Shown here in pieces: positions 50,827-57,217 of a stretch of DNA of 64,000 nt. The notes below the pieces were generated by a model. It did not search any database. It worked only from the letters and a program-made list of their open reading frames with translations, and had not been told where the DNA came from. The stretch covers positions 124,001 through 188,000 of the forward strand of contig JADFAE010000005.1 in NCBI GenBank assembly GCA_015665415.1. Reading direction: 5' to 3'. The translations under genes and the position numbers were made by a program. The stretch comes from Roseobacter sp. (GTDB taxonomy: Bacteria > Pseudomonadota > Alphaproteobacteria > Rhodobacterales > Rhodobacteraceae). Within the stretch, counting starts at the first letter, position 1; each line of letters starts with the position of its first letter.

Positions 50827-51366
50827 ATGATGGGTAAATTTCTGGCAGCGATCCTGGTGATCTCAGCCCTCGCAGCGGGTGGCGGCATGTACTACCTGCA
50901 GGTCTATGGCTACTACGATGAGGTCATCGCAAGCCCGGGCCAGGATGTGGTGTTGTTGCCGCTGGGCGAAGACACACCGCGCCCCATTTCCTATGGCGAT
51001 TTCCAGGCCATCGATGCGGGCAGCTCGCCGATCCGTTATCGCGCCTGTTTCACCACCTCTGTGACCCGGCAGGAGCTGGCGCAGCTCTTTCAGATCTCCG
51101 ACAAGCAGGAGCCACGCATTGCGCCTGACTGGTTCGATTGTTTCAACGCCGAAGCGCTGGGCAAGGCCCTGACCGCTGGGACGGCAACGGCTTTTGTCTC
51201 GGTCAAGAATATCTCCTACGGGGTGGATCGCATCGTGGCGGTGACCGAGGCGGGCCAGGGCTTTGCCTGGCATGAGCTGAATGAATGTGGCGAAAAGGCC
51301 TATGATGGCACCGTCGTCGGCGAAGCCTGCCCACCGCGCCCCGAGACCAGCGGAGCGTCTGAATGA
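50827..51366 (+). CDS. Small membrane-anchored protein between glyQ and glyS
   Basis: A 179-residue protein. An N-terminal hydrophobic anchor (FLAAILVISALAAGGGMYYL) is followed by a soluble domain with three or four cysteines, including IRYRACFTTS near 75 and PDWFDCFNAE near 100. I recall it as a Rhodobacteraceae family of unknown function (DUF6446-like), regularly found before glyS. A periplasmic location is inferred. The gap to glyS is 73 bp. Confidence 0.78.
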   Translation: MMGKFLAAILVISALAAGGGMYYLQVYGYYDEVIASPGQDVVLLPLGEDTPRPISYGDFQAIDAGSSPIRYRACFTTSVTRQELAQLFQISDKQEPRIAPDWFDCFNAEALGKALTAGTATAFVSVKNISYGVDRIVAVTEAGQGFAWHELNECGEKAYDGTVVGEACPPRPETSGASE

Positions 51367-51439: not shown

Positions 51440-53518
51440 ATGCCCGACCTGCTGATTGAACTGTTTTCCGAAGAGATCCCCGCCCGCATGCAGGCCCGTG
51501 CCGCTGAGGATCTGAAAAAGCGCATGACCGATGGTCTGGTCGAAGCGGGGCTGACCTATGCGGGTGCGGCGGCGCTGTCGACTCCGCGGCGTTTGACATT
51601 GGCCATCGAGGGGCTGCTGGCCGAGAGCCCCACCCTGCGCGAAGAGCGCAAGGGCCCCAAGGTTGGTGCGCCGGACAAGGCCATCGAAGGTTTCCTTCGC
51701 GGTGCCGGTCTGACCCGGGATCAGCTGGAAGAGCGCGACACCTCCAAGGGTGCGGTCTACTTTGCCCAGATCGAAAAGCCGAGCCGTGCCGCTGCAGAGA
51801 TCATCGCTGAGGTGCTGGAAGCGACCATTCGCAATTTCCCCTGGGCCAAGAGCATGCGCTGGGGCGCTGGAACCTTGCGTTGGGTGCGTCCCTTGCATTC
51901 GATCCTGTGCCTGCTGAGTGATGAAAACGGTGCTGAGGTGGTGCCGCTGGACATCGACGGGATCACATCCGGCAATACCACCCAAGGCCACCGCTTCATG
52001 GCACCGGGCGCGATAACTGTCAGCGGCTTTGAAGATTACGCCGCCAAGCTGAAGCGCGCCTTTGTGGTGCTGGACCCGGCGGAGCGCCAGCAGGCGATCT
52101 GGCAGGAGGCAAGCAATCAGGCCTTTGCTCGGGGGCTGGAGCTGGTCGAAGACAAGGGGCTGCTGGTTGAGGTTGCCGGTCTGGTGGAATACCCGGTGGT
52201 GCTGCTGGGTGATATCGACGCTGAATTCCTGGAGCTGCCGCCAGAGGTGCTGCAGACCTCCATGAAAGAACACCAGAAGTTCTTTTCGGTGAAGAACCCC
52301 AAGACGGGTCGGATCGAGGGCTTTGTCACCGTCGCCAACCGCGAAACCGCAGATCAGGGCGCGACCATTCTGGCGGGCAACCAAAAGGTGCTGTCGGCGC
52401 GTCTGGCCGATGCCAAGTTCTTTTGGGAGAACGACCTGCGGGTGGCCAAGTCGGAAACCGGCATGGAGGGCTGGAGCGCGCAGCTGTCGAATGTCACCTT
52501 CCACAATAAGCTGGGCACCCAGGCTGAACGCATCGACCGCATCGCTGCTCTGGCGCGTGAGATCGCGCCAGTTGTCGGCGCCGATGCCGATCTGGCGGAA
52601 CAGGCGGCCAAGGTGGCCAAGGCGGATCTGTCCTCTGAGATGGTTTATGAATTCCCCGAACTGCAGGGGCTGATGGGGCGCTACTACGCGCAGGCGGCTG
52701 GCCTGCCGCAGGAAGTCGCCAATGCCTGCGAGATGCACTATTCGCCGCTGGGCCCCTCGGATGATGTGCCGAGCGAGCCCGTATCGGTTGCGGTCGCGCT
52801 GGCGGATAAGCTGGATACCCTCACCGGGTTCTGGGCGATTGATGAAAAGCCCACGGGATCAAAAGACCCCTTTGCCCTGCGCCGCGCCGCATTGGGTGTG
52901 ATCCGGTTGGTTTTGTCTAATGGAGTAACTATGCCCTTACTTACTTCATTTTCCTTGAAAGTGGATGACAGTTCCGAGTTTGAGGAACTGTCGCAAAACC
53001 TGCTAGGTTTCTTCCACGACCGCCTCAAGGTCTTCCTGCGTGATCAGGGTATTCGTCACGATGTGATCGACGCTTGTATCGCCATGGAAGGCAATGACGA
53101 CCTGACCCTTCTGGTGAAACGGGCCCGGGCGCTGGAGGATTTCCTGAAGTCCGAAGATGGCACCAACCTGTTGCAGGGGTTCAAACGCGCCAACAACATC
53201 CTGACCCAGGCCGAGGACAAGGATGGGGTGGAATATTCTTACGGTGCGGATGTGAAATTCGCCGAGGACGAGAGTGAAAAGACGCTGTTTGCAGCACTTG
53301 AGGCAAACGAGGGGGCGATCTCCGCGGCCATCGAGGCCGAGGATTTCGCGGCCGCCATGGGCGGCATGGCGGCCCTGCGGGCGCCGCTGGATGCGTTTTT
53401 TGAGGCGGTGCAGGTGAACTCCGACAAGGACGTGGTGCGCCGCAACCGGCTGAACCTGCTGAGCCAGATCCGCAAGATCTGTGGCCAGGTTGCGGATCTG
53501 AGCCGGATCGAATCCTGA
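51440..53518 (+). CDS. glyS: Glycyl-tRNA synthetase beta subunit
   Basis: A 692-residue subunit. The start MPDLLIELFSEEIPARMQ is nearly diagnostic. MKEHQKFFSVKNPKTGR near 275 and an HD-like/DALR C-terminal anticodon-binding region complete the layout. It recognises tRNA-Gly and completes the alpha2beta2 synthetase. A short AT-rich stretch at about 52910-52960 breaks the otherwise GC-rich composition. A terminator follows. Confidence 0.97.
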   Translation: MPDLLIELFSEEIPARMQARAAEDLKKRMTDGLVEAGLTYAGAAALSTPRRLTLAIEGLLAESPTLREERKGPKVGAPDKAIEGFLRGAGLTRDQLEERDTSKGAVYFAQIEKPSRAAAEIIAEVLEATIRNFPWAKSMRWGAGTLRWVRPLHSILCLLSDENGAEVVPLDIDGITSGNTTQGHRFMAPGAITVSGFEDYAAKLKRAFVVLDPAERQQAIWQEASNQAFARGLELVEDKGLLVEVAGLVEYPVVLLGDIDAEFLELPPEVLQTSMKEHQKFFSVKNPKTGRIEGFVTVANRETADQGATILAGNQKVLSARLADAKFFWENDLRVAKSETGMEGWSAQLSNVTFHNKLGTQAERIDRIAALAREIAPVVGADADLAEQAAKVAKADLSSEMVYEFPELQGLMGRYYAQAAGLPQEVANACEMHYSPLGPSDDVPSEPVSVAVALADKLDTLTGFWAIDEKPTGSKDPFALRRAALGVIRLVLSNGVTMPLLTSFSLKVDDSSEFEELSQNLLGFFHDRLKVFLRDQGIRHDVIDACIAMEGNDDLTLLVKRARALEDFLKSEDGTNLLQGFKRANNILTQAEDKDGVEYSYGADVKFAEDESEKTLFAALEANEGAISAAIEAEDFAAAMGGMAALRAPLDAFFEAVQVNSDKDVVRRNRLNLLSQIRKICGQVADLSRIES

Positions 53519-53622: not shown

Positions 53623-53844
53623 TGATCGAGTGTAAGAGAGGTTTGGCGCGCCTCAAGGCTGAACCCTGCTGTCGCAGGGCCGCTGGCGCGGGCCTTGACC
53701 CTCGCCAAACCCAAAGGGGCGGGCTGTGGCATTGGGGGGAGCATGGCGGAAATTCCGTGAGCTGCCGGGGCTTCACCCTTGCGCGGTGATGCGTCCTGGG
53801 TATGCTGCAAGTGAAAGAAAAAGGTGCCGCAGTGCAGAAAAATC

Positions 53845-56403
53845 ATGCCTGATACCCCCTATGCCACATTGATCACCGCCTCGGCACCGATTGCCACCTC
53901 CAGCCATGGGGGCAGGGCCAAGTGTTTGCAAAGACTGGTGCGTTTGGATTTGCCGGTGCCCTGTACGGTAGCATTGTCTTTCTCTGCGGTGCAGAATGCG
54001 GCGGCCGGAGAGCTGCCGGATCTGGCTGCCATTCTGGGGGAGTTCAGCGAGGATGCGCTGCTCTGCGTGCGGCCCTCGTCGGAGGTGCCGGATTGGGGTG
54101 GACCCTCGGCGATTTTGAACATTGGCATGAATGATGCCCGCTACGTGAGCCTCTGTGACAGTCTGGGCAAGGAGGCGGCCTCGTCGCTCTATCTGCGCTT
54201 TGTGCAATCCTACGCTGTACATGTGGCGCGACTGGACCCGGATGCCTTTGACGACGTCGAAGAAGGCGGTCCGGATGCGCTGCGTGAGATCCTGCAGGCC
54301 TATGAGGCGGAGGCGGATGAGGTCTTTCCGCAGGATCCCGGTGAACAATTGGCGGCGGTGTTGCGGTCGATGTCGCGGGCCTGGGAGGGCACTTCGGCGC
54401 GGCTGTTGCGGCAGGCCAAGGGCGCGCCGGCTGAGGCCGGGCTGGGGCTGGTGGTGCAGGAGATGATTCCGGGGCTGGGCCAGGGCGAATGTGGGTCGGG
54501 GGTGTTGCAGCTGGTGAATTCCAAAACCGGCAAGCCGCAGCTGACCGGGCGCTATCTGAGCCAGAGCCAGGGCCGTGAAGCCTTGGGGGCGGGCACGGAG
54601 GCGCTGTTTCTGGAACGCGACGACCGTGGGCCCTCGCTGGAAGATTTGGCACCGGAGGCCTTTGCCCGCATCAAGGCGGATGCGGCCCTGATGCGCGCGC
54701 GTCTGCGCGAAGAGATGCAGGTGGAATTCGTCATTCAGAATGGCGCGGTTCATATCCTGGATGGGGTGCGGGTGCAGCGCTCGTCGCGGGCGGCGGTGCG
54801 GATCGCTGTGGCGCTGGCGCAAGACGGCATCATCCCGCCCCATGAGGCGGTGATGCGGGTCGATGCCCATGTGCTGAACGAGCTGTTGCACCGGCAGGTG
54901 GCTCCGGGCGCGCAGCGGGACGTGATCGGGTCGGGCATTGCGGCCAGCCCGGGGGCTGCGACGGGTCATCTGGTCTTTACCGCTGTCGATGCGCAGTCGA
55001 GTGCTGCCCGGGGGGAACCTTGCATTCTGGTGCGACGGGAGACCTCGCCCGAAGATGTGCGCGGCATGCATGCGGCTGTGGGGGTGCTCACGGGCAAGGG
55101 CGGCATGACCAGCCACGCGGCGGTGATTGGGCGCGGCTTGGGCCTGCCCTGTATCGTCGGGGCCTCGGACATGAAATTTGATTCCAAGAAAAAGCAACTG
55201 GTCACCGACCAGGGGCGGGTGTTTCGCGCCGGAGACGTTGTCACCATTGATGGCAGCAGCGGTGAGATTTTGGCGGGCCAGCCAGAAATGCTGGAGGCAG
55301 CCCAGGATGACGCCTTTCAGGCGCTGTTGACCTGGGCCGATGAGGCCCGTGACATCGGCATTCGTGCCAATGCGGATACGCCCGCCGATGCGCAGACCGC
55401 GCGCAATTTCAATGCCGAGGGCATCGGGCTGTGCCGGACAGAGCATATGTTCTTTGATCCCGGTCGGTTGACGGTGATGCGCGAGATGATTTTTGCCGAG
55501 ACTTCGAGCGGGCGGGAAGCGGTGCTGGAGCGGTTGCTGCCGATGCAGCGCGAAGATTTCCAGGAGCTGTTTCAGATCATGGAGGGGATGCCGGTCTGCA
55601 TTCGCCTGTTTGATCCGCCACTTCATGAGTTTCTGCCCGCCACCAAATCCGGCCAGCGGGAGCTGTCCGAGGCCCTCGGGATTCCGGTGAGCGACGTCAC
55701 CCGCCGGGTTGAAGAGATGGGTGAATACAATCCCATGCTGGGTCTGCGCGGCGTGCGCCTGGGGGTCACTGTGCCCGAGATCTATGACATGCAGGCCCGG
55801 GCCATTTTTGAGGCCACGCTTCTGGCCTCCAAGGCCGGTGCGCCCGTGGTGCCGGAAGTGATGATCCCGCTGGTCTCGGCCAAGCGCGAGGTGGAATTGG
55901 TCAAGGCCCGCATCGACGCGGTGGCGGCGGCTGTTGCTTTGGAGCAGGGCGAGAGTTTTGACTACCGTCTGGGCGTCATGGTGGAGACCCCACGCGCAGC
56001 GCTGCGGGCGGATGAGATTGCGCCACATACGGCCTTCCTGAGCTTTGGCACCAATGACCTCACCCAGATGACCTATGGGTTGTCGCGCGATGATGCCGGG
56101 CGCTTCATGTCCAACTATGTGCAACAGGAGGTCTTTCCTGAAGATCCGTTCCATGTGCTGGATGTGGATGGGGTCGGAGAGCTGTTGAAATTGGGGGTGC
56201 AGCGTGGCCGCAGTGCCAATCCGCAGGTCACCCTGTCGATCTGCGGCGAGCATGGCGGCAACCCCGAATCGATAGCCTTTTGCCGGGCGGCAGGCTTTGA
56301 CTATGTCTCGTGTTCGCCCTTCCGCGTGCCGGTGGTTCGCCTGGCTGCTGCGCAGCTTGCCATTGGTGAGAAAACCGGTGTTGCGGCACCAACATACACA
56401 TAA
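53845..56403 (+). CDS. PPDK-like PEP-binding protein, degenerate ATP-grasp half
   Basis: About 852 residues with pyruvate phosphate dikinase layout. The swivelling His domain (GGMTSHAAVIGRGLG, His near 424) and the PEP/pyruvate barrel (GIGLCRTEHMFF, GTNDLTQMTYG, SICGEHGG) are intact. The N-terminal ATP-grasp half deviates: GGRAKCL replaces GGKGANL, VRPSSEVPDWGGPSAILN replaces the RSGA/MPGMMDT segment, and LQLVNSKTG replaces FTRNPxTG. ATP/Pi binding is therefore doubtful. True PPDK interconverts pyruvate and PEP. The ATG at 53845 is chosen; a GTG at 53824 is possible. Confidence 0.85.
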   Translation: MPDTPYATLITASAPIATSSHGGRAKCLQRLVRLDLPVPCTVALSFSAVQNAAAGELPDLAAILGEFSEDALLCVRPSSEVPDWGGPSAILNIGMNDARYVSLCDSLGKEAASSLYLRFVQSYAVHVARLDPDAFDDVEEGGPDALREILQAYEAEADEVFPQDPGEQLAAVLRSMSRAWEGTSARLLRQAKGAPAEAGLGLVVQEMIPGLGQGECGSGVLQLVNSKTGKPQLTGRYLSQSQGREALGAGTEALFLERDDRGPSLEDLAPEAFARIKADAALMRARLREEMQVEFVIQNGAVHILDGVRVQRSSRAAVRIAVALAQDGIIPPHEAVMRVDAHVLNELLHRQVAPGAQRDVIGSGIAASPGAATGHLVFTAVDAQSSAARGEPCILVRRETSPEDVRGMHAAVGVLTGKGGMTSHAAVIGRGLGLPCIVGASDMKFDSKKKQLVTDQGRVFRAGDVVTIDGSSGEILAGQPEMLEAAQDDAFQALLTWADEARDIGIRANADTPADAQTARNFNAEGIGLCRTEHMFFDPGRLTVMREMIFAETSSGREAVLERLLPMQREDFQELFQIMEGMPVCIRLFDPPLHEFLPATKSGQRELSEALGIPVSDVTRRVEEMGEYNPMLGLRGVRLGVTVPEIYDMQARAIFEATLLASKAGAPVVPEVMIPLVSAKREVELVKARIDAVAAAVALEQGESFDYRLGVMVETPRAALRADEIAPHTAFLSFGTNDLTQMTYGLSRDDAGRFMSNYVQQEVFPEDPFHVLDVDGVGELLKLGVQRGRSANPQVTLSICGEHGGNPESIAFCRAAGFDYVSCSPFRVPVVRLAAAQLAIGEKTGVAAPTYT

Positions 56404-56521: not shown

Positions 56522-57217
56522 ATGAGACTGGGGAGGCCATGCGCAAGTGGACAAATGAGGATCCCTGACATGAAATTCCTGACCTTGGCTGCCCTGGCGG
56601 TGGCAACAACAATGACGGGACAAATGGCAACAGCCGAAGCCAGTCTGAGCGATCTGTTCCAGCGTGAACAGTCCAGCCTGAATGCGGTTCCCAAGGCCCG
56701 CTTGTCCGGGTTTCTGGGCTTCAAATTCCGCCCCAAGACCCCTGCGGTTGAAGACATAACCTTCTCCAAGGCCTGGCTGGACCAACAGCCGGTGGCGACG
56801 GGGGATGCAAATTTCTCTTGTCTTGCGGAGGCGCTGTATTTCGAGGCGCGCGGTGAAACGGTCAAAGGCCAGTTTGCTGTCGCAGAGGTGATCATGAACC
56901 GGGCCAAAAGCGCCCAGTTTCCCAATACGCTGTGCGGCGTGATCAACCAGGGCACCGGTCGGCGCTACCAGTGCCAGTTCACCTATACCTGCGATGGGCA
57001 CGAAGAGGTGATCCGCGAAAGGGCGGCCTATGTTCGGGTGGCCAAAGTGGCCCGCCTGGTGATCGATGGGGCCGCGCCGGATCTGACCCAGGGGGCCACC
57101 TATTACCACACCAATGCCGTCAGTCCGCGCTGGAGCCGCAGTTTCACCAAGACCACACGGATCGGGGTGCATCTGTTCTATCGCGATGACCGCTACCGCA
57201 CCGCCTCTAGCGAATAG
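56522..57217 (+). CDS. SleB-type cell wall hydrolase
   Basis: About 231 residues. A signal peptide (hydrophobic FLTLAALAVATT, cleavage near ATAEA) is followed by a C-terminal Hydrolase_2 domain (CLAEALYFEARGETVKGQFA near 100-119, then CGVINQGTGRRYQCQFTYTC). The Glu in EARGE is the probable catalytic acid. It cleaves peptidoglycan. The ATG at 56522 has a perfect AAGGAGG 7 nt upstream; the ATG at 56570 (MKFLTL) also has GAGG and would give a shorter, more usual signal peptide. Confidence 0.88.
   Translation: MRLGRPCASGQMRIPDMKFLTLAALAVATTMTGQMATAEASLSDLFQREQSSLNAVPKARLSGFLGFKFRPKTPAVEDITFSKAWLDQQPVATGDANFSCLAEALYFEARGETVKGQFAVAEVIMNRAKSAQFPNTLCGVINQGTGRRYQCQFTYTCDGHEEVIRERAAYVRVAKVARLVIDGAAPDLTQGATYYHTNAVSPRWSRSFTKTTRIGVHLFYRDDRYRTASSE

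Follow-up and report, generated by a model that had tools for sequence, protein, structure and literature searches.

A rebuilt ATP-grasp half in the pyruvate phosphate dikinase ortholog of most of a family that includes the marine roseobacters, a gene that very probably does not encode this dikinase

In enzyme I of the phosphotransferase system (PTS), the position that the ATP-grasp domain takes up in pyruvate phosphate dikinase (PPDK, EC 2.7.9.1) is filled by an HPr-binding domain. We take the PPDK residues mapped below, those of the ATP-grasp set in part and those of the phosphoenolpyruvate (PEP) site, to have catalytic roles, and the clostridial enzyme reportedly loses activity when mutated to K22A or R337A. 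Crystals of K22A, R337A and T453A mutants are documented by Protein Data Bank (PDB) titles, the first two being clostridial (1jde, 2dik). Here we describe a PPDK-like gene in a 64,000-nucleotide stretch of Roseobacter sp. (assembly GCA_015665415.1, contig JADFAE010000005.1, positions 124,001 to 188,000; hereafter the window), whose product shares with the PPDKs of C. symbiosum (1kbl), Flaveria (5jvl) and maize (1vbg) the same three-part full-length fold at about 37% identity. PPDKs are its best sequence matches among solved structures, and yet, judged by its sequence, the gene very probably does not encode a PPDK. An earlier note, made from the letters of the window alone, had described an intact PEP half joined to a degenerate ATP-grasp half.

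The open reading frame is unbroken from a GTG at 53824 to 56403 (859 residues), the ATG at 53845 being the likelier start. Residues were mapped using C. symbiosum PPDK from its residue 81 on and alphaproteobacterial PPDKs throughout; in the pairs below the C. symbiosum number comes first and the number in the 859-residue frame second. The features of the gene are as follows.

53845..56403, plus strand: PPDK-like gene, ATG start, 852 residues
53905..54780, plus strand: remodelled ATP-grasp (nucleotide-binding) domain, residues 28-319 in 859-residue numbering, not matched by Pfam PPDK_N
53908..53919, plus strand: GGRA replacing GGKG, the Lys22 site being Arg31 (codon 53914), by residue mapping
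54070..54108, plus strand: RPSSEVPDWGGPS replacing RSGARASMPGMMD, with Arg92 kept (R83), Gly94 to Ser85, Pro100 to Trp91, Gly101 kept (G92) and Met103 to Pro94, by residue mapping
54508..54579, plus strand: FTRNP replaced (Arg259 to Val231), Glu271 to Arg243, Glu279 to Arg251 and Asp280 to Glu252, by residue mapping
54718..54768, plus strand: metal/phosphate strand, with Asp321 to Gln299, Glu323 kept (E301), Gln335 to Asp313 and Arg337 to Val315, by residue mapping
55015..55263, plus strand: core of the phosphohistidine (mobile) domain, GGMTSHAAV intact, His455 being H431 (codon 55114) and Thr453 being T429 (codon 55108), by Pfam and mapping
55306..56358, plus strand: PEP/pyruvate TIM-barrel domain with the catalytic R538, R594, E721, N744, D745 and C807, by Pfam and mapping

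The phospho-acceptor His455 in TSHAA and the regulatory Thr453 are both kept in the window protein, as are all of the PEP-site residues R561, R617, E745, N768, D769 and C831 (C. symbiosum numbering), in agreement with the earlier statement that the His domain and the PEP barrel retain their signatures. In the ATP-grasp half, RSGARASMPGMMDT reads RPSSEVPDWGGPSA, FTRNP reads QLVNS, GED reads GRE, MQDxEF reads EMQVEF and LQTR reads LDGV, and R96, D104 and R219 are replaced as well (E87, S95 and S191). Only R92, E323 and G101 remain of the ATP-grasp catalytic set (K22, R92, D321, E323, Q335, R337, E279 and the G94-D104 loop). The description of this half as degenerate holds for the Lys/Gly loop, the RSGA/MPGMMDT region and FTRNP, all of them replaced, and goes too far for R92 (R83), G101 (G92), R135 (R125), G254 (G226) and E323 (E301), which are kept.

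The domain models see the same two halves. Pfam matched PEP-utilizers (residues 398-480 of the 859) and PEP-utilizers_C (495-845) and gave no PPDK_N match in this protein even at E<=1. With the NCBIfam PPDK equivalog model TIGR01828 the window protein scored 819 bits, below the cut-off of 843, as compared to 1382 bits for one canonical alphaproteobacterial PPDK (L039); among three other members of the altered type, those of R. pomeroyi (L078, 854) and L036 (872) pass and L017 (830) fails. Such passing scores would explain the automatic naming of these genes as PPDK. Scores with TIGR01417 (PEP-protein phosphotransferase, enzyme I; 131 bits for a cut-off of 341.7) and TIGR01418 (PEP synthase; 152 for 739.75) fell below the thresholds.

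We sorted 130 aligned relatives by the letters at K22, E271, Q335 and R337, which are for that reason circular as evidence, into 67 canonical and 57 non-canonical rows, 6 partial rows being set aside; the canonical rows from outside the host family were largely pattern-scan picks among the 80 loci listed. The non-canonical set consists of 34 rows from the genome, genus or family of the window, 21 named Rhodobacterales and 2 unplaced metagenome-assembled genomes grouping with them, whereas none of the 67 canonical rows, which belong to other orders and phyla, carries a host-family or Rhodobacterales label. Named relatives place the family, in NCBI terms, in Roseobacteraceae and Paracoccaceae of the order Rhodobacterales. 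At positions that took no part in the sorting, G94, P100 and D104 are kept in 67/67 canonical and 0/57 non-canonical rows, R259 in 67/67 and 1/57, M103 and D321 in 66/67 and 0/57, and R219 and E279 in 66/67 and 1/57. All 57 non-canonical rows have Ser at 94, Arg at 271 and an intact H455; K22 to Arg, P100 to Trp and Q335 to Asp are each found in 55 of them, and Arg219 is Ser or Thr in 55. These replacements recur in relatives across the host family and are therefore not the product of chance or misalignment. The alignment artefact that the earlier note had named, together with normal PPDK activity, as fatal to its reading was looked for and did not materialise, and we rejected an artefact of frame or alignment on the clear motif alignment, the recurrence in 57 rows and a low ratio of nonsynonymous to synonymous substitution rates (dN/dS, below).

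Of the 57 non-canonical rows, 54 have all seven PEP-half residues, none of which is lost in any of the 67 canonical rows. The exceptions are L077, which ends with its contig, L082, a gapped row, and L016, from a member of the genus (G001), with an internal stop and a scrambled stretch near residues 557-597 that could be a recent pseudogene or an assembly error. Outside the family, the row of Aureimonas jatrophae (L142), canonical by the four-letter test, carries M103A, R219V, E279I, D280G, D321E and E323D, and is by its sequence a possible independent second case of ATP-site change.

A tree of the His and PEP halves alone, without the ATP-grasp columns, was built by a quick method from 125 of 150 rows, after 12 near-duplicates had been dropped along with 13 rows that were partial, half-length or defective, and was midpoint-rooted for drawing. 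It contains one change between canonical and non-canonical types (SH-aLRT 97, with INTERMEDIATES). The tree and the glyS synteny described below both show orthologous descent, and the gene at 53845-56403 is an intact PPDK ortholog. Two host-family genomes, G089 and G401, retain a canonical-type PPDK that branches beside the altered clade, that of G401 already having Ser at 94. A grade of six (G373, G118, G136, G015, G311 and G353) keeps Lys22 and Arg259 and shows G94S, E271R and loss of Q335, and nested within it are those with Arg22, Trp100 and Asp335. In the rows sampled, positions 94 (to Ser) and 271 changed earlier than Lys22. Two odd rows break the series: L053 (G028) diverges strongly, and L164 (G316), with Lys22 retained and Tyr at 271, adjoins the likewise very divergent L094 within the R-form region of the tree.

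The altered domain is under constraint. In comparisons within the genus (11 species, each domain with 53-55 usable pairs) the median dN/dS came to 0.048 (ATP-grasp), 0.066 (His) and 0.026 (barrel), these ratios being approximate because dS is high (0.87-1.14). Positions were called fixed when at least 95% of rows share one residue, and relaxed below 60%, in a canonical set of 65 rows and a core set of 36. Positions fixed differently in the two sets number 24/295 in the ATP-grasp domain, 0/42 in the linker, 1/121 in the His domain and 2/347 in the barrel, and canonical-fixed positions have become relaxed at 19, 0, 2 and 1 sites, respectively. The low dN/dS together with the 24 newly fixed positions argues that the ATP-grasp domain was rebuilt and then held and is not decaying. 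An AlphaFold2 model keeps the complete PPDK fold (predicted local distance difference test, pLDDT, 87; predicted template modelling score, pTM, 0.84) and matches 5jvl_C with Z 47.8 and a root-mean-square deviation (rmsd) of 3.1 A over 809 residues.

A model of the altered N-domain matches 376 of 394 family genomes (393 genera) and 339 of the 347 of good quality, the former count taking in two canonical-type genomes and weakly scoring intermediates. The canonical N-domain model exceeds 340 bits in three genomes (G089, G401 and G415), the next score being 226 bits. Seven of the 18 genomes without an altered N-domain match encode a PPDK-like PEP half (G019, G028, G032, G157, G177, G229 and G422), and none was found in the other 11, several of which are incomplete. 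The trait is real and family-wide, and it probably has functional meaning. No second PPDK was found in the window genome, where the PEP-barrel family comprises this gene and a 749-residue gene that we call ptsP-like from its length and similarity; the proposed comparison with a bona fide PPDK of the same genome accordingly had no counterpart to work on.

The distribution of the PPDK regulatory kinase bears on activity. Passages of PMC8100219 state that the DUF299 regulatory protein is present in all bacteria harbouring PPDK. This kinase (DUF299, PF03618) was found in 16 of the 394 family genomes and gave 0 matches in the window genome (G000). Fifteen of the 16 belong to the 19 genomes with the most PPDK-like full N-domains, and in the remaining one, G197, the gene is split across contigs. 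The contrast of 15/19 and 1/375 gives a Fisher p of about 1e-22, which is no true probability since the genomes are related; the score cut for the 19 was set by eye on a continuous list, with G415 and half-length proteins left out. In 13 of the 16 kinase-bearing genomes no PEP synthase above the curated cut-off was found; 10 of these 13 carry an already altered PPDK, G089 and G401 have the canonical type, and the PPDK of G197 lies outside the comparison. The kinase acts only on an enzyme that is catalytically phosphorylated on His, a point demonstrated on E. coli PEP synthase and asserted for maize PPDK in passages of PMC2817694. The persistence of a kinase needing His~P beside altered PPDKs, without PEP synthase, suggests that the altered PPDKs of these genomes still form His~P.

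Published fluxes also bear on activity. Dinoroseobacter shibae and Phaeobacter gallaeciensis grown on labelled glucose formed 0% of their PEP from pyruvate despite an annotated ppdK, and the authors write, in a passage of PMC2761930, that this route 'is not active in vivo under the conditions studied'. A weak pyruvate-to-PEP flux and low ppdK expression are given for Roseobacter denitrificans on labelled pyruvate in part of PMC2749216; a CO2 assimilation route via PPDK had been proposed for this species, according to a passage of PMC2761930. In R. pomeroyi DSS-3, SPO1359 is annotated as ppdK (from a passage of PMC4334477). ATP-dependent PEP carboxykinase is encoded in 146 of 149 family genomes and in 132/132 good ones, and PEP therefore has another possible source.

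Orthology, loss of the ATP-site set, the intact PEP half, purifying selection on both halves and the single change in the tree are read from sequence; from these we infer a retained half-reaction, the loss of dikinase activity and a new acceptor. The intactness of the PEP half strongly implies that the barrel would charge the mobile-domain His (PEP + E-His <-> pyruvate + E-His~P, at H431). Because most of the site is lost, and in view of the flux data and the missing regulator, the ATP-grasp domain would no longer run ATP/AMP/Pi/PPi chemistry, and re-fixation under purifying selection implies that the N-domain has been rebuilt for a new conserved use, presumably around a different site comprising the phosphate/metal ligands R92, R135 and E323 and the new Asp at Q335. 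The charged His would most likely serve PEP-driven phosphotransfer to another ligand or acceptor held by the rebuilt domain. We favour this over a signal because R92, R135 and E323 mostly survive and because Q335 to Asp suits a phosphate/metal site. That the protein is a PEP-charged phosphohistidine protein without dikinase activity, its rebuilt N-domain serving another ligand or acceptor, has in our estimation an even chance of being right. The fuller proposal, that in most of the host family PPDK has turned into a PEP-driven phosphotransferase in which PEP would phosphorylate His431 and the phosphate would go on, by way of the rebuilt ATP-grasp domain, to an undiscovered acceptor, a new enzyme activity, is put forward more tentatively. 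The suggestion in the earlier note that phosphate goes elsewhere than to AMP plus Pi, or that the protein is regulatory, is the best-supported reading, given family-wide conservation, selection, the intermediates, regulator loss and the fluxes of relatives.

Several observations weigh against a PEP-charged protein devoid of dikinase activity. Among the 57 non-canonical rows, ATP-site residues survive at R92 (57/57), G101 (54/57), R135 (49/57), G254 (55/57) and E323 (53/57), so that an altered use of nucleotides is possible, and a further family row, L164 (G316), has Tyr and not Arg at 271. Four genomes with rather PPDK-like N-domains (G118, G316, G413 and G155) are without the regulatory kinase. 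The flux data span growth on few substrates, and the same table shows 0% PEP from pyruvate in four other bacteria (part of PMC2761930), so that zero flux on glucose alone is no proof that the enzyme is absent; the compared rows, moreover, are others than SPO1359, RD1_1948 and the ppdK genes of D. shibae and P. gallaeciensis. The analysis turned up no gene for an acceptor or partner, the neighbours at the locus being the old ppdK ones. The AlphaFold2 model lies nearer to PEP-side structures (rmsd 4.9 A to 2r82 and 9.6 A to 1kbl), which is not diagnostic, since a canonical control ranks them likewise; that control model is poor (pLDDT 75, pTM 0.63) and also puts PEP-side structures slightly first, and domain conformation as a sign of lost docking was rejected for this reason.

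A less probable alternative, although one to be kept in mind, is a regulatory pseudo-dikinase that PEP charges and pyruvate discharges, whose His~P or domain swing would report the PEP:pyruvate ratio to a partner, with no acceptor beyond pyruvate. Residues 219 and 271 presumably dock the His domain on the ATP-grasp domain. The intact PEP half suits such a sensor, and so do Glu271 to Arg in 57/57 rows and Arg219 to Ser/Thr in 55/57, both of them positions also substituted in the triple C. symbiosum mutant R219E/E271R/S262D (PDB 2r82), the His domain of which rests at the PEP side according to a passage of PMC5371819. However, the 24 newly fixed N-domain positions are not obviously needed by a pure sensor, and its partner was not found.

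We consider it unlikely that the protein has remained a dikinase that transfers phosphoryl groups through a re-tooled site, using another nucleotide, pyrophosphate or polyphosphate for ATP/Pi. R92, R135, G254 and E323 are mostly kept, Q335 to Asp, a possible metal ligand, is present in 55/57 rows, purifying selection on the ATP-grasp domain is strong, and the scores of L078 (R. pomeroyi) and L036 exceed the NCBI PPDK cut-off, all of which would fit such an enzyme; but replacements at K22, D321, R337, E279 and R259 and through most of the G94-D104 loop speak against it, as do the zero or weak flux from pyruvate to PEP in three species of the Roseobacter clade and the 378 of 394 genomes in which PF03618 was not found. 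An ordinary working PPDK, its ATP motifs odd through divergence or misalignment, would agree with a clear ortholog at the usual locus and with flux data from few conditions, and is nevertheless most improbable, as the motifs align clearly and are replaced throughout; the clostridial K22A and R337A mutants mentioned above also speak against it. A decaying pseudogene or relic of a lost enzyme can practically be dismissed: the lost regulator, the internal stop in one genus member and the 11/18 altered-N-domain-negative genomes in which no PPDK-like PEP half was found, several of them incomplete, are outweighed by an open frame under strong purifying selection (dN/dS about 0.05) and by the altered N-domain model matching 376/394 genomes, two canonical-type ones included.

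Three further features flank or overlap the start and end of the gene.

51440..53518, plus strand: glyS (glycyl-tRNA synthetase beta), the usual upstream neighbour of alphaproteobacterial ppdK
53832..53852, plus strand: six-codon frame GTG CAG AAA AAT CAT GCC TGA, overlapping the ATG at 53845, from the sequence
56522..57217, plus strand: cell-wall hydrolase (Hydrolase_2), the downstream neighbour, kept in 46/48 R-form loci

Counting loci with enough flanking sequence, glyS is found upstream within 2.5 kb in 44/47 R-form, 6/8 K-form and 33/66 canonical cases, in the latter on the same strand and in many only 75-210 bp away, and the cell-wall hydrolase lies downstream in 46/48, 8/8 and 9/65. Because glyS-ppdK is common for canonical PPDKs too, the locus is no clue to a new function, and the position after glyS loses the meaning that had been attached to it. 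A DUF6446 protein is encoded just upstream of glyS (50827-51366), and is near the locus in many family loci with enough flank. At the start of the gene, an xTG-CAG codon pair is present at the site of the six-codon frame in most of 14 inspected relatives and is in frame in those non-genus relatives whose sequence was inspected, which makes the genus seem frame-shifted and restarted at the ppdK start; the six-codon frame is possibly a relic of the xTG-CAG start of relatives, with translational coupling perhaps behind the restart at the ATG.

Other dikinase-like proteins occur in the family. The only PPDK_N match in the window genome is in a 1350-residue fusion protein on another contig (C18; L055, 4928-8980), which combines rhodanese stretches, a 60KD_IMP (YidC-like) stretch, a PPDK_N ATP-grasp domain and a PEP-utilisers mobile domain, and which from these domains is a candidate for an unusual membrane-linked phosphohistidine enzyme; similar long frames occur in G155 and possibly G401 among 25 genomes examined. 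Canonical N-half PPDK proteins with little or no PEP barrel were found in 3 of 394 genomes among the matches listed (L168 of G250, L169 of G097 and L170 of G159), and a 685-residue N-half-type frame on a 4.6 kb contig looks alike (L153, G415). The genomes G250, G097 and G159 also carry a strong altered N-domain match, a split dikinase pair being possible. An ATP half supplied by another protein, be it an N-half PPDK or the fusion on C18, was rejected since these occur in too few genomes for a family-wide trait.

No report of an altered PPDK of this kind was found in the open-access literature. The absent flux from pyruvate to PEP in 13C experiments, reported without a cause in the passages of PMC2761930, would have a simple explanation if, as is very probable, the gene is not a PPDK, and metabolic models that use it for pyruvate-to-PEP conversion would then be wrong. 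The passage from canonical-type PPDK through intermediates to the rebuilt protein is a natural series in which each loss is testable, and it raises the question of the role of a PEP-charged His without ATP chemistry. If true, the proposal would place a new activity at the PEP/pyruvate node of the marine roseobacters, a bacterial group among the most abundant in the ocean.

Compared with known systems, the window protein is like PPDK in that its His and PEP active-site residues are identical and its glyS locus is that of many alphaproteobacterial PPDKs, and unlike it in that the ATP-grasp catalytic set, Glu271 and Arg219 are replaced and DUF299 was not found in the genome. With the mutant R219E/E271R/S262D (2r82) it shares Glu271 to Arg, identical and here fixed in nature, and also the loss of Arg219; that mutant is engineered and its ATP site is otherwise normal, whereas the ATP site of the window protein is mostly changed. 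The N-half-only PPDKs (like NCBIfam NF004531; G097, G159, G250 and apparently G415) are likewise one-half dikinase relatives and form its mirror image, having canonical ATP-grasp and His domains while the full PEP barrel is absent. A separate ptsP-like gene is present in the window genome; the window protein is like PTS enzyme I and PtsP in its homologous barrel (2hwg, Z 32.5, rmsd 3.1 A over 401 residues) and, as we propose, in the use of PEP to charge a His for onward transfer to a non-nucleotide acceptor.

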